Assembly (NCBI GenBank): GCA_964036045.1
Contig: OZ038381.1
Span: forward strand, 65,410,242-65,474,241
Length of the DNA stretch: 64,000 nucleotides
DNA from: Eutreptiella sp. 'Long Island Sound 2002'
Taxonomy: Eukaryota > Euglenozoa > Euglenophyceae > Eutreptiales > Eutreptiaceae
Reading direction: 5' to 3'
In this document: positions 17,482-51,424 of the stretch, piece after piece
Layout of the letters: every line of letters starts with the position of its first letter
How positions within the stretch are numbered: position 1 is the stretch's first letter
The notes under the pieces: generated by a model
What the model was told of the DNA's origin: nothing
Database searches by the model: none
Seen by the model: only the letters and a program-made list of their open reading frames with translations
Translations under genes and position numbers: made by a program

Positions 17482-18004
17482 TTGGTACACGCTAGAAGAC
17501 CCTATTTCGTTTTAGCCTATAACTTCTGGCCTAGACTCTAGCCTAGGCTAGATCAATGTTAGAACGATATAATGTCCACCAAGAAGTGCCATTTTCTTCA
17601 TTGTCCCGCCGTGCATGCTTGCTACTGCCCATAGTGCATTCTCCCATGTTCCTCTCTCACACACTTATGTACCCTTTGTGAACGGCCCGTACTGGAACTT
17701 TTGAATGAGAATGCGAATTTGCGCGAAAATTGGCGCAATTTGCGCGAATTTGCCAAATTCACGCGAATGCGCATGTGCGAATGTGAATGCGAATCTATTT
17801 TTTTTTGCAAATTTAGCCTAAATTAGGCCAAAATCAAGTTACAGGTCGCGTCTTTTGAATTTTTATGATTTTTTGGCGAAGTAAGCATAGCAAACGGGCA
17901 CAGAGAAAAGGTACCACGGGCAAAACAGGCAAATAATGAACAAAGTGAGTATACTCATTCAAAAGTTCCATTCACACGGGGTACATAGATGTTTTTTATT
18001 ACTC

Positions 18005-18752
18005 GCCCGTTGCTCCCTCCTCAACTGGTGAGGATACCTCCCTATTGTCTATGGCACTACGGGACTTGAGTAGGGCTACTAGCCTCAAGGATGAGCCGGT
18101 GGACCATTACTTGGCCACGTGCGCGCTATCATGGTCCGTAGCATAGCGGCAATTCAACCACGCCGTCCAATATGTGAACAGCGCCACTTCCGCCCATGCT
18201 ATGGGTGAGGCATGCAAGGCCGCCGTTGAGGTATACACCGCCCCTCTACTCCCCCCCACCGCCATGTCTCAAATTGTGCTCAACTTAAGGGCCCCTAAGT
18301 CCTTGTGGAGGACACTGTTGGAGCTCTACATGCTCCGCAAGATAGAATACCAGCGCACCCTCGCCGGTGGCCCCTACTCCGGGCCGATTTGCACCGAGCG
18401 GGACTTCCAAGCCCGTGGGAAGGAGTTGGTCGCCCCCGTGGAATTGGATGACCCCGTTGCCACGGTGTTGCCCAAGGACACCGGGATCTCATGGCCCTTC
18501 GCCTCATGGGTCAAGTACATCCTCTCGTGGCCAGGTTTGGTGCCGTCAATCAACCGCTCCTTCCCGTTGGCGTTCATCGTCCGGGGTGATGCCTACCCCG
18601 TGGACTGGGGCAATTGGACACAAAACCCCGCCTCACTGGCCAATTGCGACCGCTTGGTCCGCTCCCGCGCGGACCTTTGGGTGTTGACCATGGCCAATTG
18701 CGATGACAAGGCCATGGACACCCTTGGGACGTTGTGGAAGAGCAAATGGGAG
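18005..18752 (+). pseudogene. Transposase-like protein, exon 1 (level-1 element)
   Basis: The frame starts within SPVAPSSTGEDTSLLSMALR (the start codon is lost in this copy) and passes an in-frame TAG near 18,146. It continues QFNHAVQYVNSATSAHAM, then APKSLWRTLLELYMLRKI, and FIVRGDAYPVDWGNWTQ, ending DKAMDTLGTLWKSKWE before a GTAGGC donor. The minus-strand copy at 58,244-59,010 aligns along its length. The protein family is not one I can name. Position after the TIR and conservation between copies make a transposase the natural guess. Confidence 0.6.
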
Positions 18753-18881
18753 GTAGGCCTCTCACCTAGTGCCTTTCACTTGTTCTAGTTTGGTTCTAGT
18801 TGGCTCCGGACACCGCTCGCTAGAAGCTAGGCTAGGTTAGACTAGAAGTAAACAAGCCATCCCCGATGTCTCGTGTTTCAG
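18753..18881 (+). other. Intron with CTAGAAGCTAGG motifs
   Basis: GTAGGCCTCTCACC to CTCGTGTTTCAG, 129 bp. The homologous intron in the other copy is 58,116-58,243 (128 bp). Both contain TTCTAG words and GCTAGAAGCTAGGCTAG-like words. Confidence 0.75.
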
Positions 18882-19973
18882 TGATTCAAGCGATCATCGA
18901 CACGGGCCTCGTCCAGTGGGAGTCCTCAAAGGAGGAGGCAAAGGTGATCCTCGGGGGGGATAAACCATGACATGGAGGGTGATCGGGCTGTCCACATGCC
19001 CCCAAGTGGGCTCCATGTTCAACGAGGGGGTATGGAACGCCCAAACGAAGACTTGGGGGGTAGTGCTATGCCGCAGACCATGGGGGGTGATGAGGCCCGC
19101 ATCTGCTTTCCTCCTTGGGACGCCTTCTTTGCAAGCCACCGGTTGCGGTATGCAACCAATTTTGAAATTGCCACGTGTGTGGGTTGTCTTGTGCATTTTG
19201 CACCTGACGATCCCTGGGCCGCTTGTTGGGCGAGTTTGTTGACCGGGACGCTAGGGGTGTCACCCCTTCGCTTCATCAAGACCTGCAAGTCCTGCTATCG
19301 GAGGGGCGTGATGCGGGTCTGATGAGGTGTTTGGTTTCCTTGTCTACTAGAACAATTAGCCCTTTTCTTGACCCCAGTTTTCGTATTAGGAAGTCGTTAA
19401 TGTTTGGCCGGTGCCCCAATAGTGGGGCTCACCACGAAATGAGGGTTTCTCATCACTCTATGTTGTGCCACTAGGACTTGCCCCGTACACATCGGCCAGG
19501 TTGGAGCATTTACGGGGCAGCTTCCTAGAATGGGGAAGAAACGGCCAATTTCTTTGAGGCTTGGCCGGATATTGCTTGGTGTCTTGGCATTAGGCCGGGG
19601 TCGGCCAAGTAGAAGGACATCGCGAACATGTGGGACCTGCTATAGGCCCTCTATTGTAAATATCAGGGTCCTAACCCGTTGAAGTGTGCCGCAGTGGTGC
19701 AGGATTTCCGCCGTCACTGCACTGTTGGTACTGCATCATGGTTTCTACCGAGCCGTGAGCACGATCCAGATGCCATGTTGCAGAACATTTGGCCATTTGG
19801 GCCGGCCACGTTTTGTGGTGACACTTCAGAAAGCATCAACCGCTTCCTGAAATATGGGCATAACGAGCACGGCAATCAGTGGGGGGGGGGGGGGGGCTTT
19901 GAGGAGGAGGGGGTGGATGAGGTGTCAAGGCGAAAATGGGCGGCCATCCACAGGGAGGCAAGTGTGCAAGCAT
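18882..19973 (+). pseudogene. Transposase-like protein, exon 2 (level-1 element)
   Basis: The exon continues TGLVQWESSKEEAKVILGG, then with frameshifts STCPQVGSMFNEGVWNAQ, WVVLCILHLT, and from 19,679 in another frame KCAAVVQDFRRHCTVGTASW, then DTSESINRFLKYGHNEHGNQ. The last block (acid-rich SGD.SESIN followed by HNEH.N) is the most conserved between the two copies and could hold a catalytic acidic residue of a DDE-type nuclease. That is an inference from position and conservation, not from a recognised family. At least three frame changes and an in-frame stop make this copy dead. Confidence 0.55.
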
Positions 19974-20123
19974 AATGTATGACTTGGCTTTTTGCGTATT
20001 TTGAGGTGTCATGGGTTGTGCACGGGGGGCCACGGTCGCAAGTTCCAAGCTCGGGCAGGGATGCCATGGAGAGGAGGGGCAAGGGCCACATGCAGGCTTC
20101 CCTCGGACAGACTGTTCATCATC

Positions 20124-21059
20124 ATGGCAGATCCGAATGGCCAACTCCTCGAAGAAATCATGGCGCAGGTATTTTGCTGTGCGTTCTAGCGTTGAACTAG
20201 GGAAGGTTTCTAGCGTTGATCTAGGCAGCGAGATTGGTCGCTATAACGTCACTAGAACGCCGCTAGAATAGTTGGCTAGAAGGTCGCTAGAACGGTGCCA
20301 CGTCTTTTGCCTCAGCAACGCCGAATCGGCGACATGGCTGCGCAGTTGCACGAGCAACCCCAAGCTAGCACCTACCCCAAGCCCAGCTTCCTACTCCTCC
20401 CTTGCCACCCCTTGACCCCGCGCCGCCAAGAAAACCGCCGCGGCGTTGAAGCCGGAGCACGTGGAGGAGGTGGAGGAGGTGGTGAAGGAGGGCTAGGGCG
20501 AGGGAAAGGTAAGGGAGTCCCCCGACAACGCGGAGGACCTGCAAGCCGAGCTCCTTAGGCTCTCCAGTTCGTTGGGGGCACAACAGGCAACAAGGTCGAG
20601 GGCGGAGGGGAAGGTTAGGCAGTGGGAGGAAAAGGAGGCAGATTTCCGTAGGGCGGGACAAGAGGAGCGTGTGGACTGGGCAAGGGGCAATTTGGAGAAG
20701 GCGCAGAAGAAGGCGCAAAAGAAGGCAACCGTGGAGCAGTTGGGAACGTCGGTGCACAGTTGGAGGACTAGGTTGTTCGGGGTAGGAAGGCAACGGAGGA
20801 CGAGAAGGAGGAGGTGGTGGACGTAGACGTGGAGGTGGAGGAGGGGAAGGTGAAGCAGGAGTTCAGGAAGAGAAGGTAGAGGTCACGGGGTCCTCGGTCA
20901 AGTCATTTTTGGGCAACCGAGCGGCGGGCGCCATCATGGACACGCCCTGGGACCCCGACGTCCTGGCTGGCTCCCACCCCCCTGGGCCTCAACCACCCCC
21001 TTCTGTTGCACGGAGAGTCCGGTTTGGACTCTCCGTTTTGTGATGCACCGTGTCACGAC
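20124..21059 (+). pseudogene. Second protein of the level-1 element, 5' part
   Basis: ATG at 20,124 opens MADPNGQLLEEIMAQ. A 147-bp GT-AG intron (20,169-20,315) follows and the next exon resumes QRRIGDMAAQLHEQPQAS. After a Pro/Gly-rich part the frame shifts into a charged coiled coil (KKTAAALKPEHVEEVEEVV, VRQWEEKEADFRRAGQEER). The gene stops abruptly at 21,059, where the level-2 element begins; the homologous protein in the copy at 53-59 kb goes on for several hundred codons. The rest of this copy is at 48,461 onward. Confidence 0.6.
20169..20315 (+). other. Intron packed with TTCTAGCG motifs
   Basis: GTATTTTGCTGTGCG to CTTTTGCCTCAG, 147 bp. It contains GTTCTAGCGTTGAACTAGG, TTTCTAGCGTTGATCTAGG and the reverse-complement words CACTAGAACGCCGCTAGAA and GTCGCTAGAACG. 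The homologous intron at 56,860-57,004 is 145 bp, has the same GTATTTTG donor and the same motif layout. Confidence 0.85.
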
Positions 21060-21785
21060 TGTGTATGAAGTCTGATGTCGGATGTCTGATATGGGATGTT
21101 GTGTGCGCAGTGTATCCAAGAAGATATCTGATGTTCTTGCCTATTGGAGGTGGGTTTGGGGGTCTAATGCCTAGAGGAACTTGGAATTTGGGGTCCTAGG
21201 GGGGGGTTGGGAGAAACTATGCCCCCCCCCCCCCCACTAAAAAAACAAAAGGGAAAAAGGGAGGCCTTGACACAACTGAAAAATCGTTGATGATTGGGGA
21301 ACCACCTTGGACAATAAGAAACATGGCAGTACAAAAAAAAAGACTTTGAAAACCAAAAGGGGAAAATGGGGAAAATGTGTGAGCAGGAAAAGTGGCAAAC
21401 AAAAAAAAAGACATTGAAAACCAAAAGGGGAAAGTGGGAAAATGTGGGAGCAGGGAAAGTGGGATAAATGAGGCCTTGACACAGTTGACAAATGGTTGAT
21501 CATTGGGGAACCACCCTGGACAATCAAAAAACATAGCAGCACAAAAAAAAGGACTTTGAAAACCAAAAAGGTAAAATGGGGAAAATGTGTGAGCAGGAAA
21601 AGCGGCAAAAAAAAAAAAAGACATTGCAAACCAAATGGGGAAAGTGGAGAAAATGTGGGAGCAGGGAAAGTGGGAAAATTCAATAACCACCACATAAAAC
21701 AGACATATGCAACATTGAAAACCAAAAGGGAAAAGTGGGGGAGATGTGACAGCAAGGAAAATGGGGAAAATCTTGGAAAAGAGCA
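21060..21785 (+). repeat. Left subterminal region: TCTGATG words and 208-bp tandem (S5)
   Basis: AAGTCTGATGTCGGATG and GGGATGTTGTGTG, then GATGTTCTTGCCTATTGG, are followed by A/G-rich tandem repeats (21,225-21,785). These contain GCCTTGACACA, GGGGAACCACC, GACTTTGAAAACCAAAAGG and GGGGAAAATGTGTGAGCAGG, with a period near 208 bp. The same sequence in the same order, with one S5 unit, starts the level-3 element at 30,060-30,376. Confidence 0.8.
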
Positions 21786-22012
21786 GAGCACAAACCAACA
21801 AACAGGCACATGCAAATACGTGAGCACCATCCTTTCATTCATCGATGAGTCGATCCATGTCATCCACCGGTTGCCAGCAGCAAGGTTGGGAGATGCTTGG
21901 TGGTGCTGCAGAACGGGTAACGCGGTATGTGTCTGGCACAAAAGCATCCCATTGTGCCAACAAAGGCAACGCATGCTGCATTGCAAGGTCGTTCATTTGC
22001 CGCCGATTGCTA

Positions 22013-24010
22013 CTACTTGCCACCTTCACACCAAGCACATCGAGGCAGTGCAACAACGCCCCCCCTTGTCCAATCACGCAGCTTGCCATTCTGTGCTGCC
22101 ATCACTAACTTTGCCTGCATCCTGACCACACGACGCCCCTTATCTCGCTTACGTGGTGTTGCCAATTCGTCCGCAATATTGTTCTCCCCATCGTCACAGA
22201 CATCATCTGCAACATTCACCACCACCTCTGTACAAGGACGTGGACCTGCGCAAAAGCATGCATGGCACACCAAACATGTGTTGCACCAGATGCGAACCAC
22301 CGGCTTGCATGTGGCACGCTGCGTACCTCTACGAAACGTGATGACGTCATGGTTGCCGGCATGTGAGTAAGGGGTACAATCAGGTGCAACAGTGGTGACT
22401 ACATCACCCCTGTGCCGTTTGGTAGCCTTTCTTGAGGGTGCCGTTGAGGTTAGTGCCGTACCCGGCCCTCCAAAGAAGGGCAGGATGTCACCATCATCAG
22501 CCACTGCTTCATTACCTTGCACACATTGAAGCATCGTAGCTTCTATTTCATTTACCTTCCGTGAAACCCTCTGTCTTGGGCGTAGATCAAAGTGTGCACA
22601 CACAGCTAGGTGGCGTGCCACTGCAACGCCTTGTCCCCTTGCCCATTGCTGTAAAGGGGGCAAGTTGGAATGCAATGGCATGCACATGCTAAGGACATGT
22701 GTCTCCACAATGTCTTGCATACTACGGCAGAACCTCCCACGCAACGAGATGGCACGGTCTACATCAGCTTCAGAAGGGCAATATGTTCGCAATAATGCAA
22801 GAACACGCCACAGATTCACCCACTGTGCATGCGCCTTTTCAGTTGCCAAAGTCTCCCACATCTTGGACATTTGAACGCTTGCAAAGTGCTGCACCATGTG
22901 CTCCTTAAGGCCTTCCCACTCAACCAAGGCACCAAGGCACGGTCACAGTTCACATGTGCTGCGCGCAACTCTTCTTGGTTTGAAGCCATGAATCGACGCA
23001 ACTGCTTTACGCCATATGCGGCACACTCATTGACCGGGAGGGCAAGGAAACGGCCATGGTCCAACAATACTGCTCACTTCAACACCCCCCCGGGTCCAAT
23101 TGTTGCCTGCCCCTCCTTGATGACTGCAAGCAACACATCAGTTACTGCACACGTCTGAACGCCTGGAAAAGAGGAGGTTGTTGCACACTTCTGCCCACCT
23201 GAATCGAACTGGACCAACTGCACACCATGCCATGCACCTGCCACAGCTTGCTCTTTGAACAGCAACCAGCCCGGACCCTCCTCTTGCGCCACGTTCTGCA
23301 AACGTGCCTGTAGCATACCTGTGGCAGTGGCTAAATGTGCACCAGTGGGCGCGCGCAGTTGTGCCACATTGTCAAAACACCGCATCCCATGCAGAATGTT
23401 CCCATAAACCACCCCCCATGCAAGCAAACTAGCATCATGGCACTCCTCCCACACATCCACCTCTTTGGTAGAATGCTGCACCTTCGAATCCAAGTGCCAT
23501 GCCACCCATGGGACATTGGCCAAAAAAGCAGTGGTGCGCCGTGAATTGGCCCGTGACCCCGTCATGCGATGGCTTGTCGGGATGAGTAGCAAGCCACTAC
23601 GTTCATGATGCACATGGTTTTGCATACACTTTTGCGACTCCTTCCATTGCCGTGCCCCATTGTACAAGGCTCGTTGGCGATCCACGGCCAGTCGGTGGTG
23701 GTGCCCTAGCCTACGCAGATTCTTTCGCCCTGATGTTGTGCCACGTGACAACCCCAAGTGGCTTTCCAACACTTCCCGCCGCCATTTTTTTGGGCTAGAC
23801 GTCTCCATACGCATCCCTTCACCATAAGTTCCCAATAACAAGGCCTGACTAGCCCGAGGGGGAAGCGCCACCCCAGGAATGCCACACACATTAGCCCATG
23901 CACAACACACACACTCAACACCCCCACCTATTGGACAGTTTCGGCCCACCGCATGGGTGCATGGGTGGGCAAAGTCTCTGACCTTGCAGCACATTGCACC
24001 CTCACCCCAG
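22013..24010 (-). pseudogene. Cys-rich protein of the level-2 element, decayed
   Basis: The minus strand is open with a few frame changes. From 24.0 kb it reads a cysteine cluster (CCKVRDFAHPCTHAVGRNCP, then CVCCAWANVC), then ESHLGLSRGTTSGRKNLRRL, VPWVAWHLDSKVQHSTKEVD and LLFKEQAVAGAWHGVQLVQF. A frameshift near 22,925 separates DRALVPWL from VEWEGLKEHMVQHFASVQMS. The C-terminal part has CNTCLVCHACFCAG, likely metal-binding, and a basic ATPRKRDKGRRVVRM. I do not recognise the family. It could bind nucleic acid through its Cys clusters. Its 5' part is interrupted by the LINE fragment at 24.0-24.4 kb. Confidence 0.5.
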
Positions 24011-24394
24011 GTCACACACCGCCAGACCAAAGATATCTGGTCGAAATTCTGCAACTGCCAATACCCGCCGAGCCTGAGTGACTTTGTGTATACAGCACTC
24101 TGGGGGAAAGTCAAAGTGCAGCACCGAATACAGCCAATCTCGCAAACAGACGAATGTCCGTTGTGCCGCATAACAAAAGAGTCTGTCTCTCATGCACTTA
24201 GATACCGCAAGTTTTACCCGCACGTCTCTGTCCTGCTCTCCAAAGCGTTTGGACTGGACACCGCCAGTTGGAGACTGGGTGCGCTTGAGGGCACCAAAAC
24301 GGTGGATTCCCTCCTGCTATGGGCTGCCAGGGAAGCCCACTGGTGGACCTGGTGCAAGGTGATTTTGCCAATGAGCGTACACGAACACTTGTAG
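24010..24394 (+). pseudogene. LINE-type fragment, zinc-binding region after RT
   Basis: The plus strand reads TKDIWSKFCNCQYPPSLSDF, VYTALWGKVKVQHRI, then DECPLCRITKESVSHALRYR. This matches the zinc-binding region that follows the reverse transcriptase in many plant and algal LINEs (W..LW/F....P....F.W....L.V......, then CPLC...E...H....C). The usual last cysteine appears replaced by Tyr or Arg (HALRYRKF). A helical tail (LLLWAAREAHWWTWCKVI) follows. It lies antisense within the Cys-rich gene, so it is probably a 5'-truncated LINE insertion. I cannot place its edges exactly. Confidence 0.65.
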
Positions 24395-24703
24395 TGTCTT
24401 TGGACCACTATCCGGTTGCATGGGAGCAACGTGCATGAGCATACACAAAGCATCGCTCCCTGCTGTTGCCAATGCAATGGACCGCAACCTGTCTTGCTCC
24501 ACTGACTGTGCCACTCACGTTTGCGACATACCATGCTATGCGTGCCGCTCATCCCACTCTTTTGCATGCCGTGCTCTAAGTTGCATCTGGTGTGCCTCAA
24601 CACGCACTTGCAGATGCCTTGCCACTTGCACCTTGCGGTTCTGCAACAACTTTGCCATTGCCTCAACTAAATATGAGGAGGGCTGATTTGCACCAACGGA
24701 CAT
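24395..24703 (-). pseudogene. Short helical frame, 5' part of the interrupted gene
   Basis: ATG at 24,703 (minus) opens MSVGANQPSSYLVEAMAKLL and a coiled coil (VARHLQVRVEAHQMQLRARH). An in-frame TAG follows after KEWDERHA and a TGA soon after, then it reopens in frame with VAQSVEQDRLRSIALATAGS up to the LINE edge. It presumably continued into the Cys-rich frame below 24.0 kb before the insertion. Confidence 0.45.
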
Positions 24704-24759
24704 GATGTCCTGCTAGTCACTACAAACATGCTGTAGCGGTGCCACGGCAGCCACACACA

Positions 24760-25040
24760 TGTCAACGGGCATGCTCTGGGCATGTGTATTCATGTTCCGG
24801 TGCCCAACCCTTGATGCACCTTGTGTTGCAGTTGGGGAAGGGGGGGGGTGCACCTGGTGGTAGCACCATAGCTGGCACAGAGGTGTCACTAGGCATGCCC
24901 TGGGCGTGCATAGTCATGTTCCTGTGCCCAACCCTTGATGCACCCTATTTTGCAGTTGGGGCGGGGGGGGGGGCGCACCTGGTGCCAGCGCCATGGCTGG
25001 CACCGAGGTGTCAGTGGGCATGCTCTAGGCATCCCGTGTC
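24760..25040 (-). repeat. Coding tandem repeat, 123-bp unit (41 codons)
   Basis: Two and a bit copies on the minus strand encode DTSVPAMVLPPGAPPP followed by GASRVGHRNM and MHAQGMP. GTGCCCAACCCTTGATGCACC recurs at 24,800 and 24,923. The unit is a multiple of three and Pro-rich, like the 96-bp repeat at the start of the helicase gene. Confidence 0.7.
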
Positions 25041-25066
25041 TTGCTAAGGGCTGAAGCTTCTGTCCG

Positions 25067-25447
25067 TTAGGAGGCAGACTGCGACATGTCTAGTACCATG
25101 AGCTCGGTTGGTTTGCGCTTGTACAACCGGAAGGTGGCTTGTCGCGGACTGGGGGGTGGGCTCATGTCCTTCACCGTGGTATCGTCAGACAGCCACCACG
25201 TGTTGAAAACCACATACACTACAAAGTCATACTCATTCTTGGTTGCCCCAATATGTACCACCATGGCAAGCAAAGACCATTGGCATCCGAAGATATCCAG
25301 AAACTCATGGTCCACAACCAACTTGTATTCTTGTTGGTGGTGGACATGTAACCCCACAACTTCATTGAACATCAAGGATGCATAAATTGGTGCCTCTCGC
25401 AGATCACCCCCACGGGCACAAGGGGGGGGGGGGTATTGGGCCAACAC
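25067..25447 (-). pseudogene. Unrecognised protein segment of the level-2 element
   Basis: 126 codons are open on the minus strand: DLREAPIYASLMFNEVVGLH, then EYKLVVDHEFLDIFGCQWSL and VVHIGATKNEYDFVVYVVFN, ending TELMVLDMSQSAS. The alternation of hydrophobic strands looks like a folded domain, but I cannot name it. It sits between the 123-bp coding repeats and the frames above 25.7 kb on the same strand. Confidence 0.45.
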
Positions 25448-25699
25448 GTCGCCTCTTCATTTCCTCCTTCACACGTTGTCGCACACTTTGCCCCTGGTTC
25501 GTCACATGTAGTACCTATGATGTCATGCGTGTCTCCCCCCCCTCCCGTAGAACCTTCACCTCACACTCCCCACACCGTTGCCAGAACTGCTCATAAGACA
25601 AGCAACATGATAAATCCACCACGTCCTTCAATGAAGACTGGTGCTCCATGCCCTTGCGCTATGGCAGAGGATGTGCAGTCCTTGGGGTCACCTCCTGGG

Positions 25700-26741
25700 T
25701 GCCCTTGTGGACTTAGGTGTTGTGTGTATGCCGGACGCACACCGGCCTCCTCCATTTTCGCCACCAATTCAGCATTCCTTCAGCATCTTCAGACCTGCAT
25801 CATCCCTCCATGCGTTGTCCACAAACGGTACTGCCGCATGCAAACGTCCAGGGTGGTTGTCTAGTACCTCCGGGCTGAAAAGGCTGCAACGCATCAACTG
25901 CTCACTAGAGTCTCGCATGGGCACCCGCATATTATTTGCAAAGTGGCGCCCCAGCGTGTATCCTGCCACCAGGCTCTCCTCGCTCAATGGTTCATTGCGT
26001 TGCTCCTGTAGCCCTTGGCAAGCAATCGTCAGACAACAGGCAACCCCATGGGCGGCTTGCATCAGCGCTTGGTCAAAGCGCTGTTGCCGTGTTAGGGTGA
26101 TAGAGACACACACGCGTGGGGCCGCAGTCTCAGGCAACAACGAGTTGCGCCGACGGGCATGGCTGCGAGACTGACCTGCCACCTTGAGACCTGGTAACAG
26201 GTCACTAACAAGTGGTTTGGGCCCACTTGTTGCTTGAGGCCACACAAATGGGCCCGGCTGAACCCCAAGTGTGCGAACCAGAAGCTCATAGAAATGGGCC
26301 ATAGAAGGTGTGGTATATGGATCACGTCCTGTCAAGAACGGCCACTCTTCCACCCAGAGGTAGTGCACGCACCAATTTGCACCAAATGGCCCTGTGGTTT
26401 GTCGCCTTCACAACTGTTGGCCACCCTGACATTGCACCGGCCTGACGGAGACCACTACGAACGGTCTGCCGTTTCGCGAGCCGTTCCCATAGTTGTGTAG
26501 CAACCTCACGATGGTGCTTATGGATGCCCCCATCATGCAGGGTGGGTATGGCGAACCCATGCTCGGTGTACATGAACCAGCACAACGCCCTGGCACCATT
26601 GTGATTCACCACATCCGGTTCACATGATGCCATGCGGTCCGTGAACCGCCTCCAAAGGCCTCCTCCAACCTCACGGGTGGAGTCCCATCCCAATCGTCCT
26701 GTGGCCAACAGCAGGCCATACTTCCTTCTTGCGGGCTCCAA
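25700..26741 (-). pseudogene. Unrecognised protein segments of the level-2 element
   Basis: Two overlapping minus-strand frames join by a frameshift near 26,340. The first reads ARALCWFMYTEHGFAIPTLH and ATNHRAIWCKLVRALPLGG. The second reads VEEWPFLTGRDPYTTPSMAH, FYELLVRTLGVQPGPFVW, RQQRFDQALMQAAHGVACCL and LAAVPFVDN-like C-terminal sequence. Both have the even residue use of real protein. No domain is recognised. They lie just downstream (minus sense) of the shared motif at 27.39 kb, so they may be the 5' part of a large multi-part gene running down to 22.0 kb. Confidence 0.45.
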
Positions 26742-27385
26742 TAACTTCTCCGGCGGCCACTCAGGAGGCTGGTCAATTGCTGGGCTCGTGCACCACCACT
26801 TTTACTGGTGTGGGTGCCTTTCGTGCCTTGCAGGGTCCACAACTGTGACCACTATGGGGCTCCCACAGCTCAGGTGGGCAATCAAGCGCACGACCCTAGT
26901 ACTCAAAGTGCCCCCCCGGCTTCTCCTCAGGCTCACAAGTTGGTCCACAAGACGCCGTTGTGGGTGAGTTTGTGTCAAGATCGCTATGGCTCTGACCACA
27001 GAAAAAATGCTGCTGCTCAGTGGCACACAGTGGTTGGGACAAGGTTTGGTCGCGAAACGCGAGGGCTTGGACTAGAACCGAGTGCTCATAGGCACACGAG
27101 AGATGGTCCCACCCCAATCCATGCCCGGAGAGAGAACCTAACCAATGCATGGCCCAGGAGTGAGAACCTAACCAATCCATGGCCCAGGAGAGAACCTCAC
27201 CAAAACCCAATCCCAAGAGCATGCATATGGAGGGAGAGTCTCGCCTAGCCATGGCTGAGGAGAGCATTCATGCACTTGGAGTGAGCATCCCCAACCTTAA
27301 CCGACGATTGTCCCTAAATCCATTTGCCAAATTAAGTGAACCCATGCCCTATTTTGTACGAAGTTGCGGTCAGGCGAACTGACTT
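26742..27385. other. Leader region upstream of minus-strand genes; no gene assigned
   Basis: A short imperfect repeat (AACCTAACCAATGCATGG, AACCTAACCAATCCATGG) stands at 27,130-27,190. Frames on both strands are short or compositionally odd. Confidence 0.35.
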
Positions 27386-27470
27386 CTGAGGCCTACAACG
27401 CCAAGGTTGCAGCGACAAAACACAAACCTACACCTCAAAGGGCGTAGTGAGGCAAAAGAAACTACAAGAA
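27386..27470. promoter_or_regulatory. Shared hairpin-like motif of the giant-element family
   Basis: CTACAACGCCAAGGTTG, then CCTACACCTCAAAGGGCG and TAGTG. The same words stand at 46,057-46,115 (upstream of the helicase gene), at about 41,219-41,275, and in looser form at 47,883 and 48,040. CTACAAC and GTAGTG give it partial inverted symmetry. It lies upstream of minus-strand genes twice, so it may be a promoter or processing site; this is inference. Confidence 0.4.
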
Positions 27471-27579
27471 GAAATGGCATAGATGAAACCACGGAATGGG
27501 CAATCACGTTTTACACTCGTCCGGCGCGCAGTATTCATTGCCGGGTGGTCATCCGATGTTTCGAATGGCGATCTGCAAG

Positions 27580-30055
27580 GTTGTAGGAGGAATGTAGGAA
27601 TCATCCCGTGGGCCCGCCATGGTCCTAGGAGGGGTCTAGACCCTGTTTTGAATCATCGCGTGCCCAATCGATGAGTCCCAGAAAGTTGTAGACCCTGTTT
27701 TGAATCGTAGCGTGCCCACGCGACGATTTCTAGAAGGGTCTGGACTCTGTTTTGAATCAACGCGTGGAGACGTGATGGTTCTAGGAGGGGTCTAGACCCT
27801 GTTTCGAGTCATCAGGTGCCCACGTGATGGTCGTAGGAGGGGTCTAGACCCCTCTAGGAATCCTTGTGTGCCCATGCGATGTCTTTGGGAGGGGTCTAGA
27901 CCCTGTTTTGAATCATCGCGTGCCCAAGCGATGGTCGTAGGAGGGGTCTAGACCCCTCTAGGAATCATTGCGTGCCCACGCGACGTCTCTTGGATGGGTG
28001 TAGACCCTGTTTTGAATCATCGCGTGGCCACGCGATGATTCCGAGAGCGGTGTAGACGGTGTTTTGAATCATTGCGTGCCAACCCGATGTTTCAAAACAG
28101 AATCTAGGAGGGGTCTAGACCCCTCTAGGAATCATCGCGTGGGCACGCCATGGTTCTGGGAGAGGTCTAGACCCTGTGTGGCATCATCGCGTGCCCACGT
28201 GATGATTCAAAACATGTTCTAGGAGGGGTCTACACCCTGCTTTGAATCATCGCGTGCGCACGCGATGATTCCAGGAGGAGTTTGGACCCTGTTTTCAATT
28301 AGTGCGTGCCCACGTGATGATTCCTCGAGGGGTGTAGACCCTGCTTTGAATCATCGCGTGCCCCCGCGATGATTCAAAACAGCATCTAGGAGGGTTCTAG
28401 ACCCCTCTAGGAAACATCGCAAAGGCACGCGATGGGTCTAAGAGGGGTTTAGAGCCTGTTTTGAATCATCGTGTTCCCACGCGATGATTCCTACAGGGGT
28501 CCAGAACCCTCTAGGCATCATCGCGTGTGCACGCGATGATTCAAAACAGGGTCTACACATCTCCCAGAACCATAGCGTGCCCACGCGATGATTCCTAGAG
28601 GGGTTTAGACCCCTCCTAGACCCTGTTTTGAATCATCGCGTGCGAACGCGATGATTCCTACAAGGGTCTGGACCCCTCTAGAAAACATCATGTGGGCAAA
28701 CAATGGTTCTGGGAGGGGTCCAAACCTTTTGAAGCATCGCGTGCCCACACGATGGTTCTAGGAGGGGTCTACACCCCTCTAGGAATCATCGCGTGCCCAC
28801 GTGATGGTTCTAGGAGGGGTCTAGACCGTGTTGTGAATCATCGCGTGCCCACGCGATGATTCCTAGAGGGGTCTAGACCCAGTTGTGAATCATCGCGTGG
28901 GCACACAATGATTCCTGGAGGGGTGTAGACCCTGTTTTGAATCATCGTGTGCCCACGCGATGGTTCCTACAGGGGTGTAGATCGTGTTTTGAATCATCGC
29001 GTGGGCACGCGCTAGGAGGTCGTAGACCATGCTCTGAATCATCGCGTGCCCAGGCGATGGTTCTAGGAGGGGTCTGGACCCTGTTTTGAGTCATCGCATG
29101 GGTACGCAATGATTCCTAGAGGGGCATAGACCCTGTTTTGAATCATTGTGTGCCCACGCGATGGTTCTAGAACGGGTCTAGACGCTGTGTTGAATCATCG
29201 CATGCCCACGCGATGATTCAAAATAGGATCTAGAAGAGGTCTAGACCCCTCTAGGAATCATCGCGTGGGCACGTGATGGTTCTAGGAGGGGTCTACACCC
29301 CTCTAGGAATCATCGCGTGCCCACGCGATGGTTCTAGGAGGGGTCTAGACCCTGTTTAAAATTTTTTCGTGCCAAGCGATGAATAAATACAGGATCTCGG
29401 AGGGGTCTAGACCCCTCTAGGAATCATCGCGTGGGCACGACATGGGTCTAGGAGGGGTCTAGACCCTGTGTTGCATCATCGCGTGGGCGCGCGATCATTC
29501 CGGGAAGGGCGTAGACCCTGTTTTGAATCATCGCGTGCGCATGGTTCTTAGAGGGGTGTAGACCGTGTTTTGAATCATCCTGTGGGCACGCCATGATTCC
29601 TAGAAGGGCCTAGATCCTCTTGTGAATCCTCACGTGGGGACGCCATGATTCCTTGAGGGGTTTAGATCCTCTTTTGAATCATCGTGTGCCCACGCCATGA
29701 TTCCTAAAGGGGTGAAGACACTGTTTTGAATCATGGCATGCCCACGCGATGGTACTAGGAGGAGTCTACACCCCTCTAGGAACCAACGTGTGCCCACGCG
29801 ATGGTTCCAGGAGGGCTCTAGACCCCTCTAGGAATCATCGCCTGGGCACGCGATGGGTCTAGGAGGGGTTTACACCCCCCTAGGAATCATCGCGTGCCCA
29901 CGCGATGATTCCTAAAGGGGTGAAGACCCTGTTGTGAATCATCGCGTGCCCACGCGATGGTTCTAGGAGGGGTCTAGACCCCTCTAGGCACCATCGCGTG
30001 GGCACGCGATGATGCCTAGAGGGGTGTAGATCCTGCTTTGAACCATCGCGTGCCA
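27580..30055. repeat. S1 minisatellite, about 52-bp unit, two palindromes per unit
   Basis: About 47 units are present. Each unit joins two inverted repeats: GAATCATCGCGTG with CACGCGATGATTC, and CCTAGAGGGGTC with GACCCCTCTAGG. Units vary in which half is complete (for example CTAGACCCTGTTTTGAATC). The array resumes at 41,440-42,085 after the level-3 element, and a short remnant is at 37,623-37,700. Confidence 0.9.
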
Positions 30056-30059
30056 GCTA

Positions 30060-39204: not shown

Positions 39205-39501
39205 CTAATACATGGCTCGGCGATTAAATTCCCCGTCCATGAAATATGCCACCTGCTGCCCGTGGTTGTCACGGATCAGGTGCAGTGTCTTGGCACCGTA
39301 GGGCCCGCGAACTATGGGTTTTTGGGGGGATGGGCTGTCTTTGCGGACAAATGTGGGGGGTCGAGGTGCGGATGGTTGGGACACGCCGGTGGAAGTGAGT
39401 GCCTCTTGCACGGCTACCAAGGCGACCTCTTCTACCATCAAGGGAATTCGGGGTGCTGGTGGGCTTGGGGAGCCAGTGCCAAACTCAGGTGTGGTGTGCA
39501 A
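39205..39501 (-). pseudogene. Coding-like minus-strand frame in level 3, unrecognised
   Basis: 98 codons read PLMVEEVALVAVQEALTSTG, then SPSPQKPIVRGPYGAKTLHL and QQVAYFMDGEFNRRAMY. Past the TAG the same frame continues FAVQYPKKKKRENADEP. Residue use is protein-like, but there is no recognised motif. It may be the remains of a level-3 element gene. Confidence 0.35.
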
Positions 39502-39857
39502 ATTGGCCCGCTTGCTAGGTGGGAGGGGGTTGGGGTCATCATTGGGGGCTGGGGCGAGGCTAGTTCAATCAGATGTTTCTCGGTGTTCGAGTCCCATGGA
39601 CATGCGGGTTGTTCGCCAAACTCCATGAGCTCTAGGAGGTCCCCCCCATCTCATTCCATGGAACGAGGGTTTGAGTAGGGGAGGGGTAGGGAGCAGAATT
39701 CTAGCATTGGGGACGAGGCTATACTAATCGGGCTTGGCGAGGTGATGGGACCTTGGAGTAGTGCAAAGGAGGTGTGTAGAAGGTGTTGGTAGCGTGTAGG
39801 TGCACTACTACGGACCCCTTAAAATGACCCCAATTGGGCCTAGTATGTCCCGGAATC

Positions 39858-40170
39858 CCCCAACTTGCTCTCAACGCCCCTCCATGTTCGTGGCAGCCCT
39901 ACCGTTGAGACCTTTTGCCTTCTTTTTGGCGCCCTATGGGATTTACAAAGAGCCCTAGACAATGCAAAACGCGCCCGCAGCCCAAACCACGAGCATAGAA
40001 GGAGGGATACAGATAGCAAGATCAACGCTCCAAAGAGTACGCTCAAAATGACACTAAATCAAGCCAGTACGGCCGGGAATACCCCAAATTGCCCTCAACA
40101 CCCCTCCATGCTCGTGGCACCCCTGCATCTGACAATCTTTTGCCTTTCTGTTGGCATGCCCTTGGGTTCA
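39858..40170 (+). repeat. Two-copy tandem duplication, period about 225 bp
   Basis: CTCAACGCCCCTCCATG, TCGTGGCAGCCCT, CTTTTGCCTTCTTTTTGGC and CACAAAGAGCCC-like words recur at 40,090-40,180 with about 80 percent identity by eye. Confidence 0.7.
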
Positions 40171-40302
40171 CAAAGAGCCCCGGACGACCCTCAACCCGCC
40201 CGGAAGCACCGGGCAGCACGTGGCAGCGCTCGGGAAGGAGCCCCTCCCTAAAGAAAAAACGAGTCGGAACAGTAGTTTGGCAGGTGCTTCCGGGAAGCGG
40301 AG

Positions 40303-40909
40303 TGCAAGGCGCTGGAGATGCAAGAGACCGCCTAGCGGAAGGCGATGTTGGTAGTGAACACACCGAAAGGAGGACATAGGACCAAGCAGATAAAGAAAGC
40401 CAACGACGAGTGCGACTTATACCTTGGCAAGAGGGAAGGAGTGCGTGAAGCCAAGAAGGTGTCCGAGAGGCTGAAGATGCTGCAAGCAGGGAAACCTGGC
40501 CACATTCCACCAGCAACAAGGTGGGCGGAGACGTCGCCGACGGACAATGGCCCCTTGGAGGACACCTATTTGCGGCACGCGCGCGTGGTTGCCCGCACTG
40601 CAGACCTGAAGACCGCTTTGATGGTTCCGCTAGTCCTGAGTCCTAGTGTGACCCTGTGCGTGCAGCTGCGGGAGGCGGGGTACACAGACCAGTGAGGTGA
40701 AGCGGGAATGGTCCCCCAAGACGGCGCAAACCCCCAACTGTTCCTTCCTGGCGGCCTCGATTGCCGAGAAGTTTGTCAATGCCCCGACCCCCGGTTGGAG
40801 AGTGCTGCGCGAGATGAAGTTTTACCGAGCGAAGGAACAGTCGGTGTCAGAGCAAGACAAGCAGGACAAAACAACGGAAGGTTGTAGATGGAGACTTTGG
40901 AATGGCTAG
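40303..40909 (+). pseudogene. Decayed plus-strand frames of unknown function
   Basis: The plus strand reads VVNTPKGGHRTKQIKKANDE, REGVREAKKVSERLKMLQAG, RHARVVARTADLKTALMVPL and ends YTDQ at a TGA (40,695). A second frame from 40,697 reads NCSFLAASIAEKFVNAPTPG and REMKFYRAKEQSVSEQDKQD. Charged helices alternate with ordered segments. No family is recognised. These are the only plus-strand coding-like segments of the level-3 element. Confidence 0.4.
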
Positions 40910-41044
40910 AGAATTGGCCCACGATCGCGAAGCACAGGACCAGCCTGAAGTGAGCTCGAGCGAAGGTGCGGAGACGTCTCTCTCCACAGTTCCGGCCCAA
41001 CCCGATGAACCCACACCCACCCACCCCTCCAGCAAAATTGACCC

Positions 41045-41439
41045 GATTAGCTGAGGTGAGGTTGCTTGGGCCAGATATCAGGATTCTGTTCCCAGTTGTC
41101 TTCAGTCACATATGAGCCCCCCGATCGGTTGCAGTCAGAGAGATGGGGTGGGATGGGGTGGGGGGGGGGGGGGGGCGTACCATCATTGAAGGGGTTGCAA
41201 GCACTGGTTGGGTTTGAGACGCTAGGGTCGAGACCACAACCCACTTCTACACCTCAAGGGTGTGGTGACAATGGGACAAGTCTGATATTGGGGGGAGACA
41301 CGGGGGGGGGGGGGGGCGAAGTCTGACACAGGGGGGGGGGGGGTTAGAAAGGGTGTTGGGGGGGGGGGGGGGGTTGGGGGTGATGGTCCATAAAAGTCTG
41401 ATGTCTGATGTCTGATAGCCGACTAGGTCGCTATACACA
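41045..41439 (+). repeat. Level-3 right subterminal region
   Basis: It contains CATCATTGAAGGGGTTG, a diverged shared motif (CTACACCTCAAGGGTGTGG), several G runs of 12-16, CATAAAAGTCTGATGTCTG and the terminal GACTAGGTCGCTATACACA. Matching words close the level-2 element at 47,860-48,460. Confidence 0.7.
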
Positions 41440-42085
41440 TAGCTGTCGCGTGCCCGCGCGATGCTTCCTAGATGGGGGTAGACCCTATTTGGAATCATCG
41501 CGTGGACACGCGATGATTCCTAGAACGTCGTCGACCATGTTTTGAATCATCGGGTGCCCACGCGATTGTTCTAGCATGGGTCTCGACCCTGTGTTGAATC
41601 ATCGCGTGGGCACGCGATGATTCCTAGAGGGGTGTAGACCGTATTTTGAATCATCGTGTGCCCACGCGATGGTTCTAGGAGGGGTCTAGACCCTATTTGA
41701 ATCCTCGCGTGCCCACGCATGGTTCTAGGAGGGGCTTAGAGCCTGTTTTGAATCATCGCGTGCCCGAGCGATGGTTCTAGGAGGGGTCTAGACCCTGTAT
41801 TGAATCATCGCGTGCCCACGCGATGATTCAAAACATGTTCTAGGAGGGGTCTAGACCCTGCTTTGAATCATCGCGTGCCCACGCGATGATTCAAAACATG
41901 TTCTAGGAGGGATGGCTCTAGGAATCATCGCGTGGGCACGCAATCATGCAAAACAGGGTGTGCACCCCTCCTAGAACCGTCGCGTGCCCACGCGATGATT
42001 CATGGAGGGGTCTGAACCCTGTTTTGAATCATCGGGAGGGCACGCGACGATTCATAGAGGGGTGTAGACCTTGTTTAGATTCATC
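41440..42085. repeat. S1 minisatellite, right part
   Basis: About 12 units with the same two palindromes as 27,580-30,055. It starts directly at the right end of the level-3 element and is read as the other half of the interrupted array. Confidence 0.9.
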
Positions 42086-42950: not shown

Positions 42951-42955
42951 ACGGG

Positions 42956-44680
42956 TCACGTGCCCTCTTGTTCTTCTTCCACGCCTTCCATAGCCAGTGC
43001 CACAACCCCCCCACCCGGCGCCAACCGATAGATTGTGCCCTCCATGACCTTCTCAACGACTCCACCCTCCCTCAAAACCCTTGCCAGCTCAAGGGTGGTG
43101 CTCACAGTTGCTGAGCGTGCTTCCCACGAGACATCGTGCAATGCAGCTATCCATGCACCAGGGGTGGGGTGGCCATCCCAACCTGTGAATCCTCCGAGGA
43201 GGTGGAGCTCAGGCTGTGCCCTGCTGGTTAGTGTGTTCGACCTCCGGATGTCATGCATGATCCGTGGTGTGGCGGACACCAGGGAGCCGAAGATGACTGG
43301 GGCTTGCTGCCCTTGGAACCCATCCTGGGTAGCAACCGTCAACAAAATAGGGACCTGCGTGGCCCGCCACTTGCTACCAACATACCTCAGACACCATTGG
43401 AGCCACACCATTTGGACATAGTGTGTCGTCACTCCCGCCACCGACCTATTTGGGTAATTGCCTTTGCTGACAGCCAGCTCCAAGGAATGGCACACGAGCA
43501 CTCCCTCCTCCATGCTCATGTTCCCTTGTCTAAGCAACAAAGGATCCATCTTCATGGTGTTCCATGCCTCGTGCACATGACTATGCACTTTCCGCATGTC
43601 GTCGGGGCCCAAAGTTTCCTCCGGTTCCCACCACAAGCTGTTCCCATCTGGGTTCACAATGCGGATGGGGTTGTGCAGGATTGGGTCAGGGAGGGGATGG
43701 ACCAATGAGTGGTAGTGACCAAGGGCCCCCCCGTCTGAACAAGGCACGCATGATTGTAGCCACAGGCGTATTCATCCGGTACTGTTGTACCAAGATACTA
43801 GCACGGCACCGTGGGCGGTACAAAAAGAATCGCAAGGTGATGGTGGTGTAGAACCGTTGTGAATCATGCGAATGCACATGAGGGCTAGCAGATTGTATGT
43901 GGACATTGTTGTATGAGAACGTCCGGTCCGTTGACCACGCCAAAACTGTGGCCTTTCCTTCACCCTCACAAGCGCTAGCCAAAAGCTGGACCTGGATGTC
44001 GGGTCGCAAGTGCCCAGGGTCACCACACAACAGACATTGGCTGCTCATGGCTGCCAAGTCCAAGCCCACTGAGATGCTGTGCCTGGACGCCTCATCCACA
44101 AAGCTGAAGGCAAGCCTGGTTTGTGGCCTCCCGTGTGCAGCCCCAAGAAGCAGCTTTTGCCGGTTGGCAACCGTTCCAGCTGTGGAAAACACCACACAGC
44201 AAGAGTTCAGGGCACATGTGAGGGTATCCTTACAACCTGGGGTGTTCCCCAAGGTCTCCTACACCTTCAGCTCGTCAAAAGACGCCAGCCCTAGTGGGGC
44301 AGTAGTCCGTTGGGCATGGAGTCGCAACAAGGGTGCTGGATGGTCGCCAAGCACCCTGTCGCGAAACACAACGTCATTATAACACTTGTCATGCACGCAT
44401 GACAACCAGTTGTTGACTTGTGCATTGGTGGGTGCAGTCGCCAGCAAACATGCGCGGGGTGGGGTATCTCCCTCCACACCCCCCACTCTCTCGCCCATAT
44501 TGATGGTGCCAAGGTTAGCAGGATCTGGGTTCCGGGGAACAATGAGCCCTTGCTACCATAGCACGACTTTGATGCATACCACCAAGGCCGCTGACTTTCC
44601 CGTCCCAGCACCAAGAGTCGATGCTTGATGCATGACTCGTCTAGTACCTGACGCAGAGCCAACGCCTGTGAGGGGTTCAA
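42956..44680 (-). pseudogene. SF1 helicase core, Upf1/DNA2 type, decayed
   Basis: All main superfamily-1 motifs appear in order on the minus strand. Q-like/N-terminal SQALALRQVLDE; Walker A GAGTGKS at 44,592-44,612, reached by a frameshift after HRLL; Walker B VDEASR near 44,084-44,098; motif III GDPGHLRPD near 44,008; motif IV QQYRMNTP near 43,773-43,787; motif V DGFQGQQ at 43,304-43,324; motif VI RRSNTLTSRAQ near 43,214-43,246. QYRM, DGFQGQ and the R.N...SRA form are typical of the Upf1/DNA2/Sen1 group. Such enzymes unwind DNA or RNA 5' to 3' using ATP. A TAG follows VVLW after Walker A, with frameshifts near 44,600 and 43,740, so this copy is dead. Confidence 0.8.
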
Positions 44681-44719
44681 GCAGTGGCGTTGGACAAGGT
44701 GTTTAAGGATCTCCTGGTC

Positions 44720-45298: not shown

Positions 45299-45339
45299 GG
45301 GTGCTGGGTGCTATGGGAGTGGGAAGGATGGCTGTGGCG

Positions 45340-46018: not shown

Positions 46019-46049
46019 TAAGTTGAAGACACCGGTTGGAGAGCGGCTT

Positions 46050-48460: not shown

Positions 48461-48977
48461 ATCCTGCGCCGCGCGCATCACAAGATTTTGAGGCAGGGGA
48501 GTTGGGTGTGGGTGGATGAGCGGGGGGTGCACAAGGACAAACCGTTGCGGGTCGGTGAGGTTTGAGGGAAATGGCACTGCGCGAATGCAAGGGGGAGCAG
48601 AGGGCCACGTGGCCCCCTTTGACAAGGGCATGAAGATGTTTGAATTGGTCCAATTCAACGTCTTCCCCCCCGATGTCAAGAAGGGGGGGGCAGGGTGTTG
48701 GCAAGCCATGGGGCTTGGGGGTATGCCGTCCGTTGGGAGGACGTGCGAATGGTCTCCGACATGGTTCGAGATGATGCGGGTTGGCAGCTTCGACCCGTCG
48801 GCGGCCAACTGCAGGGCGTATGTCGGAATGGTGCACAGCATCGCGTCTAGCCCCCAGCCCAAGCGCAATACCTTCAGCAATCTCGTAGCCAGGTGACCCC
48901 CGCAGCCGCACTCCCCAACCCCCATTACGCCTTCACCAAAGCCTTGGGGGCAATCCGCTCCACCCTGGACACACAAG
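48461..48977 (+). pseudogene. Second protein of level-1 element resumes (exon b, 3' part)
   Basis: The sequence resumes with codons for HHKILRQGSWVWVDERGVHK, homologous to LLGPGRWVWVDEGVVVHFDK in the copy at 56.0 kb. After frameshifts it reads MFELVQFNVFPPDVKKGGAG, CWQAMGLGGMPSVGRTCEW, then CRAYVGMVHSIASSPQPKR, and ends at CACAAG before a GTACGG donor (48,978). Counterparts in the other copy are MFELAQLNLFSPERKKGEAT and YAGLVHGIASRPKSKPK. Stops and shifts show decay. Confidence 0.6.
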
Positions 48978-49154
48978 GTACGGTAGGCTATGTGCCTTCT
49001 AGCGTTGATCTATGAAAGCCGTCTAGCGTTGATCTAGCCAAGCCGCCGCAGCCGTCGCTAGAACGTCGCTAGAAAATCGCGACAACAGTAGACGAGAACG
49101 TCGCTAGAAGACACCTGCCTGCGGTTTTTGTTCTCACACGTCATCAGCCTGCAG
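48978..49154 (+). other. Intron with TTCTAGCG motifs
   Basis: GTACGGTAGGCTATG to ATCAGCCTGCAG, 177 bp. It contains CTTCTAGCGTTGATCTATG, TCTAGCGTTGATCTAGCC, GTCGCTAGAACGTCGCTAG and AACGTCGCTAGAAG. The inverted duplicate at 50,095-50,271 is also 177 bp. Confidence 0.8.
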
Positions 49155-49990
49155 GTTTGCAGTGGGGTCCCCCGCGGGGTGCCGGTCGAGTGTCGCGACG
49201 CGGGGTGTCACCCGCACCTAGTGGGGGTCACCAAGTTGGGCCGGATGTTGGGGAATGACGCCACCACGGCCCTCTCGGTGCCGTCCGAGTTGGGTAGGTG
49301 GGAGGCGGAGAGGAGCCGGTGGCGAATGGACCCGCAGCCCACGGGTTGGATGAGGGTGGGGGAGGAGGGGGGAGCAGCAGCAGCAACAACAACATGAGCA
49401 GCAGCAACACCAGCACCAACAGGGGGGCGAGGGACCCCCCCCCCAAAAGCCCTCAAACCCCCCCCCCCCCAGAGCCCCCCAAAAGCCCAAGAAGCACGGT
49501 CAGATCGGGAGTAGCGGGGAAGAAGCCCCCCCCGAACCACACCCCAAGCCGAGAGCCAAGGCCAAGCCCATTCCCCACCCCCCCCAAACCATAGCCCCCC
49601 CCTCGCTAGAAAATAGGGACTGGGACCCCTATTGGAATGTGCCGGGTGTGGCGGACACACGGTATGTCCCTTAGGCGGAGGGGGGCAACGGGGGGACCGT
49701 CATCCAAGTGAGGATGTGCGGGGATCGAGATGAGAGGCTGGACCCGGGGGAATGGTGGGTGGTGTCTCAGGAGTCCATCGGTGGGGGGGAAGAAGGGCAA
49801 GAAGGGGAAGAAGAGGAAGAGGGAGAAAGATGGGGGCACCTTCCGGGTGCCGGGGGAGCTCCTCTTTCGGACCTAGGAGGCGTAGGCCCACCTCCGGGAG
49901 GCCTTGGAGGAGGGGGTCCATGGGGACGACAGGGATGACGAGGGGGGCGGGAGGGACGACAAAGGGGAGGTGGGTGACAAGGGGGGTGAG
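49155..49990 (+). pseudogene. Second protein of level-1 element, exon c (first copy)
   Basis: It reads VCSGVPRGVPVECRDAGCHP, HLVGVTKLGRMLGNDATTAL, RWEAERSRWRMDPQPTGWM, then Ser/Asn/Pro low complexity. After frame changes come KKGKKGKKRKREKDGG, FRVPGELLFRT and AHLREALEEGVHGDDRDDEG. The blocks LVGVT.LGRM, GRWEA, RVPGELLFRT and AHLREAL recur in three copies (here, 50.3-50.9 kb, 54.4-55.4 kb). The acidic Asp/Gly-rich tail lies next to a basic Lys/Arg patch. Function unknown. Confidence 0.55.
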
Positions 49991-50288
49991 GTCACTCGCC
50001 AACATGCGGCCCAGCTCGGTGACCCCTGCGAGGTGCGTGCGGTCCCCTCCATGGCGCCAGTCCACCCACACCCCTCGGGGGTCCCCACTGCACGACTGCA
50101 GGTTGATGACTTGTGAGAAGAGAAACAAGAGGCAGGTGCGTTCTGCGACGTTCTAGGCAACTATTGCACCAACGTTCTAGCGACGTTCTAGCGACGGCGG
50201 CGCCGGGTTGGCTAGATCAACGCAAGAACGCTTCCCTAGATTTGCGACAGAACGCACGTAGCATACCGTGCCTTGCGTGTTGAGGGTG
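49990..50288 (-). repeat. Locally inverted piece in the duplicated 3' half
   Basis: Read on the minus strand it holds the exon-b end (CACGCAAG), a GC-AG intron (50,095-50,271) and the start of exon c (SCSGDPRGVWVDWRHGGDR, LAGVTELGRMLASD). The sequence on both sides is in plus orientation. It therefore appears that the second copy of this region was flipped in place. Confidence 0.65.
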
Positions 50289-51000
50289 GGGTGGAAGAGG
50301 AGGGCAGCAGCAGCAGGAGGCAGAGCAGCAGCATCGGCACCAACGGTGGGAAAACCCCTCAACCAACTCCCCCAAGCCCTCCCCCAAGGCCCCGAAAAAG
50401 GAGCCCCGCAACCTGGAGAGTAGCATGGAAAAAGGACCTGCCCCGAACCTCATCCCAAGGCCAAGGCCAAGGCCAAACCCAAGGCCTAGGCCATGCCCCC
50501 CGAACCCCCTGCCCCCCCCGCTGGTAAATAGGGGCTGTGACCCTTATGGGAATGTGCCGGGTGCGGGGGACACCCGACATGTCCCTTGGGGGGGGGGGGG
50601 CAACGGTGGGACCGTCATCTAAGTGACAATATTGGGGGATTGGGATGAGGAGCTACACCAGGCAGACTAGTGGGTCGTGTTGCAAGGGTCCAATGGGGAG
50701 GAGGGGAAGAAGGAGATGAAGGGCAAAAAGAGGAAGTGAGAAAAAGAGGGGGTACCTTGCGGGTGCCGGGGAAGCTCCTCTTTCGCACCCGGCAGGAGGC
50801 CTTTGGGAGGCCTTGGGAAAGGGGGTTGATGGGGATGACGGGGATGACGAGGGGGTCAGGGTTGAGACAAGGGGGAGGGGGGTGAAGGGGGCCGACAAGC
50901 GGGGCGAGGAGGGGGTTGAGGGGAGAGGCGAAAATGGGGATGAGAAGGAACGGGACACCGGGGGCGAGAAAGGGGGTGCCGGGAGCCAAGCCGCCAAGTA
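50289..51000 (+). pseudogene. Second protein of level-1 element, exon c (second copy)
   Basis: It continues in plus sense from the Ser-rich linker (EEEGSSSRRQSSSIGTNGG) through PPSPPPRPRKRSP and, after frameshifts, the counterpart of WDEELDPG (WDEELHQAD near 50,645). The basic patch follows, then a long acidic/G-r tail (GDDGDDEGVRVETRGRGVKG) ending GGAGSQAAK at a TAA. Stops interrupt it. It is a tandem partial duplicate of 49.36-49.99 kb extended to the true 3' end. Confidence 0.5.
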
Positions 51001-51424
51001 ACCTTCCAAGTTACCTATTGGCTAGGGGGCGCACCGGGCTAACTGGCGGGTTAGAGGGGGGGGGGGGGGGCAGCGCTCCATGAGTCAAGTAGAGCATCGC
51101 GACCCTGTGGTTGGCCACGGCTGACCATGGCAGCCGGGGCAGCTTCTCTTTGAGGAGTAGCGGAGCATTAATTTATATTGTTCTAGCTAGGTTCTAGCGA
51201 AGCGTTCTAGCGACGTTCTAGCAAGTTCCAGCGGCGCTGAAAATAGTGAAATTTTGAAAAACAATGTGTGCCCCCCCGAGTACAGATAGGGGGGTCCAGG
51301 TTGAAACCCTAAAGATACCCAACAGTTACCTCCACATTGGGGGGCAACCCCCCCCCTTTTTCCGTTCTCGCCTCCTAGCGCCATCTAGGCTTGAACACCG
51401 TTGGGTCTTCTAGCCTGTACCTAG
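51001..51424 (+). other. 3' noncoding end and TIR of the level-1 element
   Basis: It holds GACCCTGTGGTTGGCCACGG and GCAGCCGGGGCAGCTTCTCT, both matched in minus sense at 53.75-53.81 kb. Next comes a subterminal TTCTAGCG cluster (GGTTCTAGCGAAGCGTTCTA) near 51,190, then GAGTACAGATAGGGGGGTCC, and the inverted terminal GGGTCTTCTAGCCTGTACC at 51,402-51,420. Confidence 0.7.

Follow-up and report, generated by a model that had tools for sequence, protein, structure and literature searches.

A probable four-layer nest of mobile elements in a euglenophyte genome, with one DNA transposon lying inside its relative

DNA transposons of the hAT superfamily generate 8-bp target-site duplications, with a preference for nTnnnnAn target sites, and have short inverted ends, and EnSpm/CACTA elements leave 2–3-bp duplications and have ends starting CAC. 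Nested insertions are common among plant LTR retrotransposons, including ‘autoinsertions’ within a single family, according to the portions of the literature drawn on here (PMC6911290). Giant and cargo-bearing eukaryotic elements, Helitrons, Polintons and Teratorn among them, have also been reviewed, and the sections of that review used here describe Helentrons as pairing a helicase with an OTU-like protease (PMC6431247); the word ‘hAT’ is absent from its main text.

Here we describe a nest within a 64-kb window (the whole stretch of DNA analyzed, positions 65,410,242–65,474,241 of contig C4) of the Eutreptiella sp. ‘Long Island Sound 2002’ assembly, which comprises 2.28 Gb in 2,205 contigs. 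This nest very probably comprises four layers of mobile or repeated DNA, established in succession as Z (a dispersed repeat), A, B and C, an order that follows from which element interrupts which. An initial annotation had likewise proposed a four-layer nest; the number of layers stands, but the fourth is Z, which it did not describe, and the exact ends lie 3–6 bases away from those it gave. A TTAGGG-type telomere repeat lies at the start of contig C4, and elsewhere, within the window, a host-gene-like stretch (11,646–12,179, minus strand) contains a myosin-like motif, CQIGKTKVFLK, recognized by eye, with no Pfam family found there.

The two outer layers, together with a second copy of A, comprise the following features:

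15,975–17,478, plus strand: dispersed repeat Z, left part (outermost layer); minimum extent, with internal gaps, boundary from the alignment to locus L042
17,477–17,478: 2-bp target-site duplication of A (AC), left copy
17,479–21,053, plus strand: left part of element A, with the inverted end CCCTTGGTACACGCTAGAAGACCC at 17,479 and, as its final 8 bases, the left duplication of B
48,467–51,426, plus strand: right part of element A, which opens with the 8 bases of the right duplication of B
51,427–51,428: 2-bp target-site duplication of A (AC), right copy
51,427–51,528, plus strand: dispersed repeat Z, right part; minimum extent, boundary from the alignment to locus L043
53,423–59,223, minus strand: uninterrupted relative of A (the copy), with its own 2-bp duplication TA

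A query made by joining the outer flanks of A through a single AC matched 47 times in the 40 scored of 312 candidates; 33 of the 47 matches extend 20 bases or more past the join in both directions, and the window's own halves match only up to it. Fourteen of these 33 sites were fetched, and all 14 read across without A (12 of them free of gaps out to 22 bases from the join, L047 with small gaps next to it, and L050 with a single gap at a distance of 22 bases), which places A within a dispersed repeat. The initial annotation had recognized both A and the copy, but its start for A (17,482) and its limits for the copy (53,426–59,220) give way to 17,479–51,426 and 53,423–59,223, respectively. Duplications of 2 bp flank all three A-type elements compared (A, AC/AC; the copy, TA/TA; a short relative at locus L030, CC/CC), a call that depends on the inverted-repeat start chosen, a choice supported by the empty-site alignments.

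The short relative (L030, 148–1,038; ∼890 bp), which retains both ends and the 2-bp duplication, is probably a miniature, non-autonomous form of A; locus L029, fetched as a complete A copy, matched A at its left end only. The left half of A in the window contains a 186-bp insert (19,311–19,496) that is absent from the copy exactly between 57,678 and 57,677. None of the 40 homologs of A that were found is named. EnSpm/CACTA was considered as a classification for A, given the fit of the 2-bp duplications, but was rejected: the ends begin CCC or CGA, and the nine A-type proteins yielded no Pfam family above cut-off, and hence no recognizable CACTA transposase.

Element A is interrupted by element B, whose features are:

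21,046–21,053: left 8-bp target-site duplication of B, CACCGTGT
21,054–30,053: element B, left part, with terminal CACGACTGTGTAT and subterminal GTCTGATG repeats
22,013–24,171, minus strand: transposase-like gene pieces matching protein P0113; frameshifted and without about residues 216–476 of P0113
25,028–25,435, minus strand: USP-type peptidase box, 81% to the piece at locus L025
41,446–48,466: element B, right part, terminating in ATACACAATCCTG
42,956–44,719, minus strand: UPF1-like helicase pieces, with Pfam AAA_12 (E 6.2e-7) within 42,956–43,747
48,467–48,474: right 8-bp target-site duplication of B, CGCCGCGC

As had been predicted, the two halves of A abut when aligned to the copy, without loss or gain of a single base (blastn): 20,924–21,053 aligns to 56,189–56,059 of the copy (minus strand) and 48,475–49,992 to 56,058–54,523, such that 21,053 pairs with 56,059 and 48,475 with 56,058. 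At the base level, A reads GATG CACCGTGT (B, 21,054–48,466) CGCCGCGC GCATC, compared with GATG CAGCGGGT GCATC in the copy, one 8-mer having become two in A, a net gain of 8 bp. The duplication copies agree at five of eight positions, all three differences being transitions, and at least five matching bases are expected by chance with p ∼0.03; taken alone, this is weak to modest evidence. Points against the four-layer reading include this 5/8 agreement, a terminal inverted repeat of B that matches at 11 of 14 bases, and a duplication of 3/8 at locus L009. The case for insertion of B into A is strong, because the net gain relative to the copy is exactly 8 bp and the family termini of B lie exactly there. 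The insert had been reported as 27.4 kb with TGTGTAT…ATACACA ends, which is accurate except that B runs 6 bases further at each end; its description as ‘giant’ holds at 27.4 kb when C is included, B without C measuring 16.0 kb (16,021 bp).

With a transposase gene that is broken and gapped (the gap amounts to ∼0.76 kb relative to locus L021), the window's copy of B looks dead, and its genes were read from relatives instead. The USP-type box matches Pfam UCH at E 1.2e-8 in the L025 piece, the window piece (E 0.0017) falling below cut-off. The N-terminal part of the helicase matches a piece at locus L013 that is recognized as AAA_11 (E 1.3e-9), AAA_12 at L013 being below the Pfam cut-off. A Helitron or Helentron identity for B, considered because of the helicase, was rejected, as B and C have terminal inverted repeats and target-site duplications. 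Rfam gave no match in the window.

The innermost layer, element C, lies within a tandem array (S1) internal to B:

27,598–30,053: S1 array (52-bp palindromic units), left part
30,046–30,053: left 8-bp target-site duplication of C, TCGCGTGC
30,054–41,445: element C, 11,392 bp, with a 14-bp terminal inverted repeat CAGCTATGTGTATA
41,446–41,453: right 8-bp target-site duplication of C, TCGCGTGC
41,446–42,085: right part of the S1 array, which keeps the phase of the left part

The array is split by an 11.4-kb element, as first reported, although not at 30,055/41,440: C occupies 30,054–41,445, extending 6 bases beyond TGTGTAT…ATACACA at each end. B and C are kin with the same ends (77.7% identity over 349 columns at the left and 87% over 69 at the right), and blastn found no other similarity between them. 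The terminal inverted repeat of C matches at 14/14 bases and its duplication, TCGCGTGC, at 8/8, the latter being less telling in this array than in unique sequence, as every S1 unit holds the same 8-bp word. The phase of the array across the join was therefore tested: once C and one duplication are removed, the 60-base stretch spanning the join scores 78 against the array unit, compared with a mean of 73 (sd 15) for array windows and a mean of 13 (maximum 22) for 200 background windows.

Because TCGCGTGC is part of every unit, recombination between repeats could also leave identical flanks, and C might in principle have arisen or been exchanged inside the array instead of transposing into it. 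We consider such an origin highly improbable: the termini of C are complete, with a fully matching inverted repeat, C-like elements also occur outside S1 arrays (left end and left flank at locus L028), and other family members have 7–8/8 duplications in non-array flanks (L020, L010). For C as an insertion, a single-layer version of the site, in a relative of B, can be recognized from the sequence of L013, where the array runs unbroken over ∼3,039–5,727, between B coordinates 27,583 and 42,091. S1-like units occur in 5 of 20 fetched family loci (L009–L028), and in four of the five (L012, L013, L019, L027) the array adjoins B coordinates 27,521–27,583, as in the window.

Tandem arrays make up ∼73% of C, in which the family's transposase, USP and helicase pieces have no match (tblastn, E 1e-3) and two reading frames have no Pfam family above cut-off. 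Given its B-like ends, C would most simply be a non-autonomous element moved in trans. A 52-bp array within C (32,692–37,624) is near-identical on both strands around a center at ∼34,700, with an inverted match of 90% over 32,700–36,696 that suggests a large inverted duplication.

Both the nesting and the order of insertion in the initial annotation are thus borne out, by target-site duplications (2 bp for A, 8 bp and degraded for B, 8 bp and exact for C) and by hosts lacking the insert at every level: the 33 of 47 matches and 14 of 14 fetched sites for Z without A, the copy, with one 8-mer at the point where the halves of A abut, for A without B, and the array-intact relative at L013 for B without C. 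The perfect scar of C and the degraded scar of B agree with C being the younger. That assembly falsely joined abundant repeat pieces into a nest has a very small probability in our estimation: A, B/C and Z are all abundant, S1 and C are rich in arrays, and the joins are known from the assembly alone, but nothing about a false join would explain family-length duplications placed exactly at family termini, the 8-bp net gain relative to the copy or the in-phase array. It is these insertion scars that argue against misassembly.

In this very probable series of insertions, A entered Z with a 2-bp duplication, B then entered A with an 8-bp duplication that has since degraded, and C, with ends like those of B, entered the 52-bp array of B with an 8-bp duplication that is still exact. 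All three events would represent cut-and-paste transposition, catalyzed by an enzyme of the DDE type. No transposase was detected in C, which may have been mobilized in trans by an intact B-type element whose transposase recognizes the shared ends. The landing of a relative in the repeat-rich interior of B would be a tolerated chance event rather than a working arrangement.

Nesting is an ordinary phenomenon, here well preserved; less ordinary is the family to which B and C belong. A genome search produced 734 first-look candidates for the left end of B and 759 for the right end, 40 of each being scored, and 20 of the 40 scored left-end places were fetched as 10-kb stretches (L009–L028). The typical left end, judged by eye, is CAGGAYTGTGTATAAAG. 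Duplications match at 7–8 of 8 positions in four of six end pairs (C, L020, L010 and the inner pair at L017), at 5/8 in B and at 3/8 in L009, at least 7/8 being expected by chance with p ∼4e-4 per pair; L017 was first paired with an outer left end (5/8) and was re-paired, after its C-like content was seen, with the inner one at 4,650 (7/8). The C-like element at L017 (4,650–9,146), with its 7/8 duplication, lies downstream of another family left end, a possible second self-nest. Two intact-looking transposase-like proteins, P0006 (1,036 aa) and P0113 (1,093 aa), represent the two longest protein clusters (231 and 215 member sequences, respectively) of this abundant family, which may have been recently active.

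Among the 20 loci, transposase matches were found in 16, the USP-type box in 11 and the N-terminal helicase piece in two (L013, L026), the last a count to which many 10-kb stretches may not contribute, as they may end short of the helicase's place. Locus L026 holds transposase, USP box and helicase pieces together, like B, so this association is not unique to the window's copy. An OTU-like protease was set aside as a family component, with motifs seen by eye (P0058, L025) and no Pfam match; tblastn results for it were not counted, as the query slice overlapped the transposase. Loci L022–L026 (contigs C23, C20 and C15, and C9 twice) have a common 100-bp left flank (99–100 of 100 bases) and are ∼95–99% alike inside, indicating that element and flank were copied together; the 1.6-kb flank of the C20 copy (L031) encodes a Glycos_transf_1 domain (E 2.6e-15). 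The B/C family is thus abundant and poorly known, with copies that carry helicase-like and ubiquitin-protease-like genes. The literature matches listed include no giant inverted-end element, hAT-like or other, with a UPF1-like helicase and a ubiquitin protease. More than one copy of the family combines the unclassified transposase with a USP-type peptidase and a helicase, which makes it a testable question why a DNA transposon would keep such genes.

The identity of this transposase concerns the family, not the nest. We lean toward its being a strongly diverged member of the hAT superfamily: the B/C element works like a hAT element in its 8-bp duplications (7–8/8 in four of six end pairs) and short inverted ends (14/14 in C, 11/14 in B), and motifs recognized by eye follow the order found in a genuine hAT of this genome, at locus L039 (a D region, DGAS, CH..R.L.LA, RIRW, and AAVERAISLRGRF versus SAGVERLFSAAGLTF, the last pair being the best local hhalign alignment in one comparison). 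Against this assignment, 0 of 90 members match hAT Pfam profiles at E 1, the transposase has no PDB sequence match, hhalign against hAT is not significant (0.1% in two comparisons, in one of which the best alignment lies elsewhere), two low-confidence structure models (pLDDT 30.8 and 47.0) gave no clear fold match, and clean family duplications do not follow the hAT target preference. NCBIfam likewise has no match for the transposase, BLASTP against hAT proteins of the same genome reached a best E of 0.31, and alignment A2, used as a query, retrieved 238 proteins, with neither names nor Pfam domains among the 120 listed. This genome is rich in true hAT genes (PF05699; 150 scored of 1,757 candidates, all above cut-off). 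A less probable, tentative alternative to diverged hAT ancestry is a lineage-specific superfamily of giant DNA transposons apart from hAT, whose complete members would use the ubiquitin-protease-like gene and UPF1-like helicase in their life cycle, and whose gene-less members would grow by tandem-array expansion and could land in each other's arrays.

With its four layers resolved to the base, the nest provides a stratigraphy within a 2.28-Gb genome that can help to order transposition bursts and to test assemblies. It shares with nested plant LTR retrotransposons (PMC6911290) the enclosure of younger elements by older ones, in some cases members of one family, together with target duplications and an order of insertion that can be read. 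It differs from those nests in that B and C are DNA elements bounded by short inverted ends and duplications of 8 bp, that the duplications of A measure 2 bp, and that the innermost insertion occupies an internal tandem array. B and C resemble the hAT superfamily in their 8-bp duplications, short inverted ends and hAT-like motifs seen by eye, but differ in a transposase without a significant profile, sequence or fold match, and in the size of B, 16 kb with other genes. Like the giant elements in the sections of the review used here, B is large and carries accessory genes beside its mobility gene; unlike rolling-circle Helitrons, it has terminal inverted repeats and an 8-bp duplication (PMC6431247).
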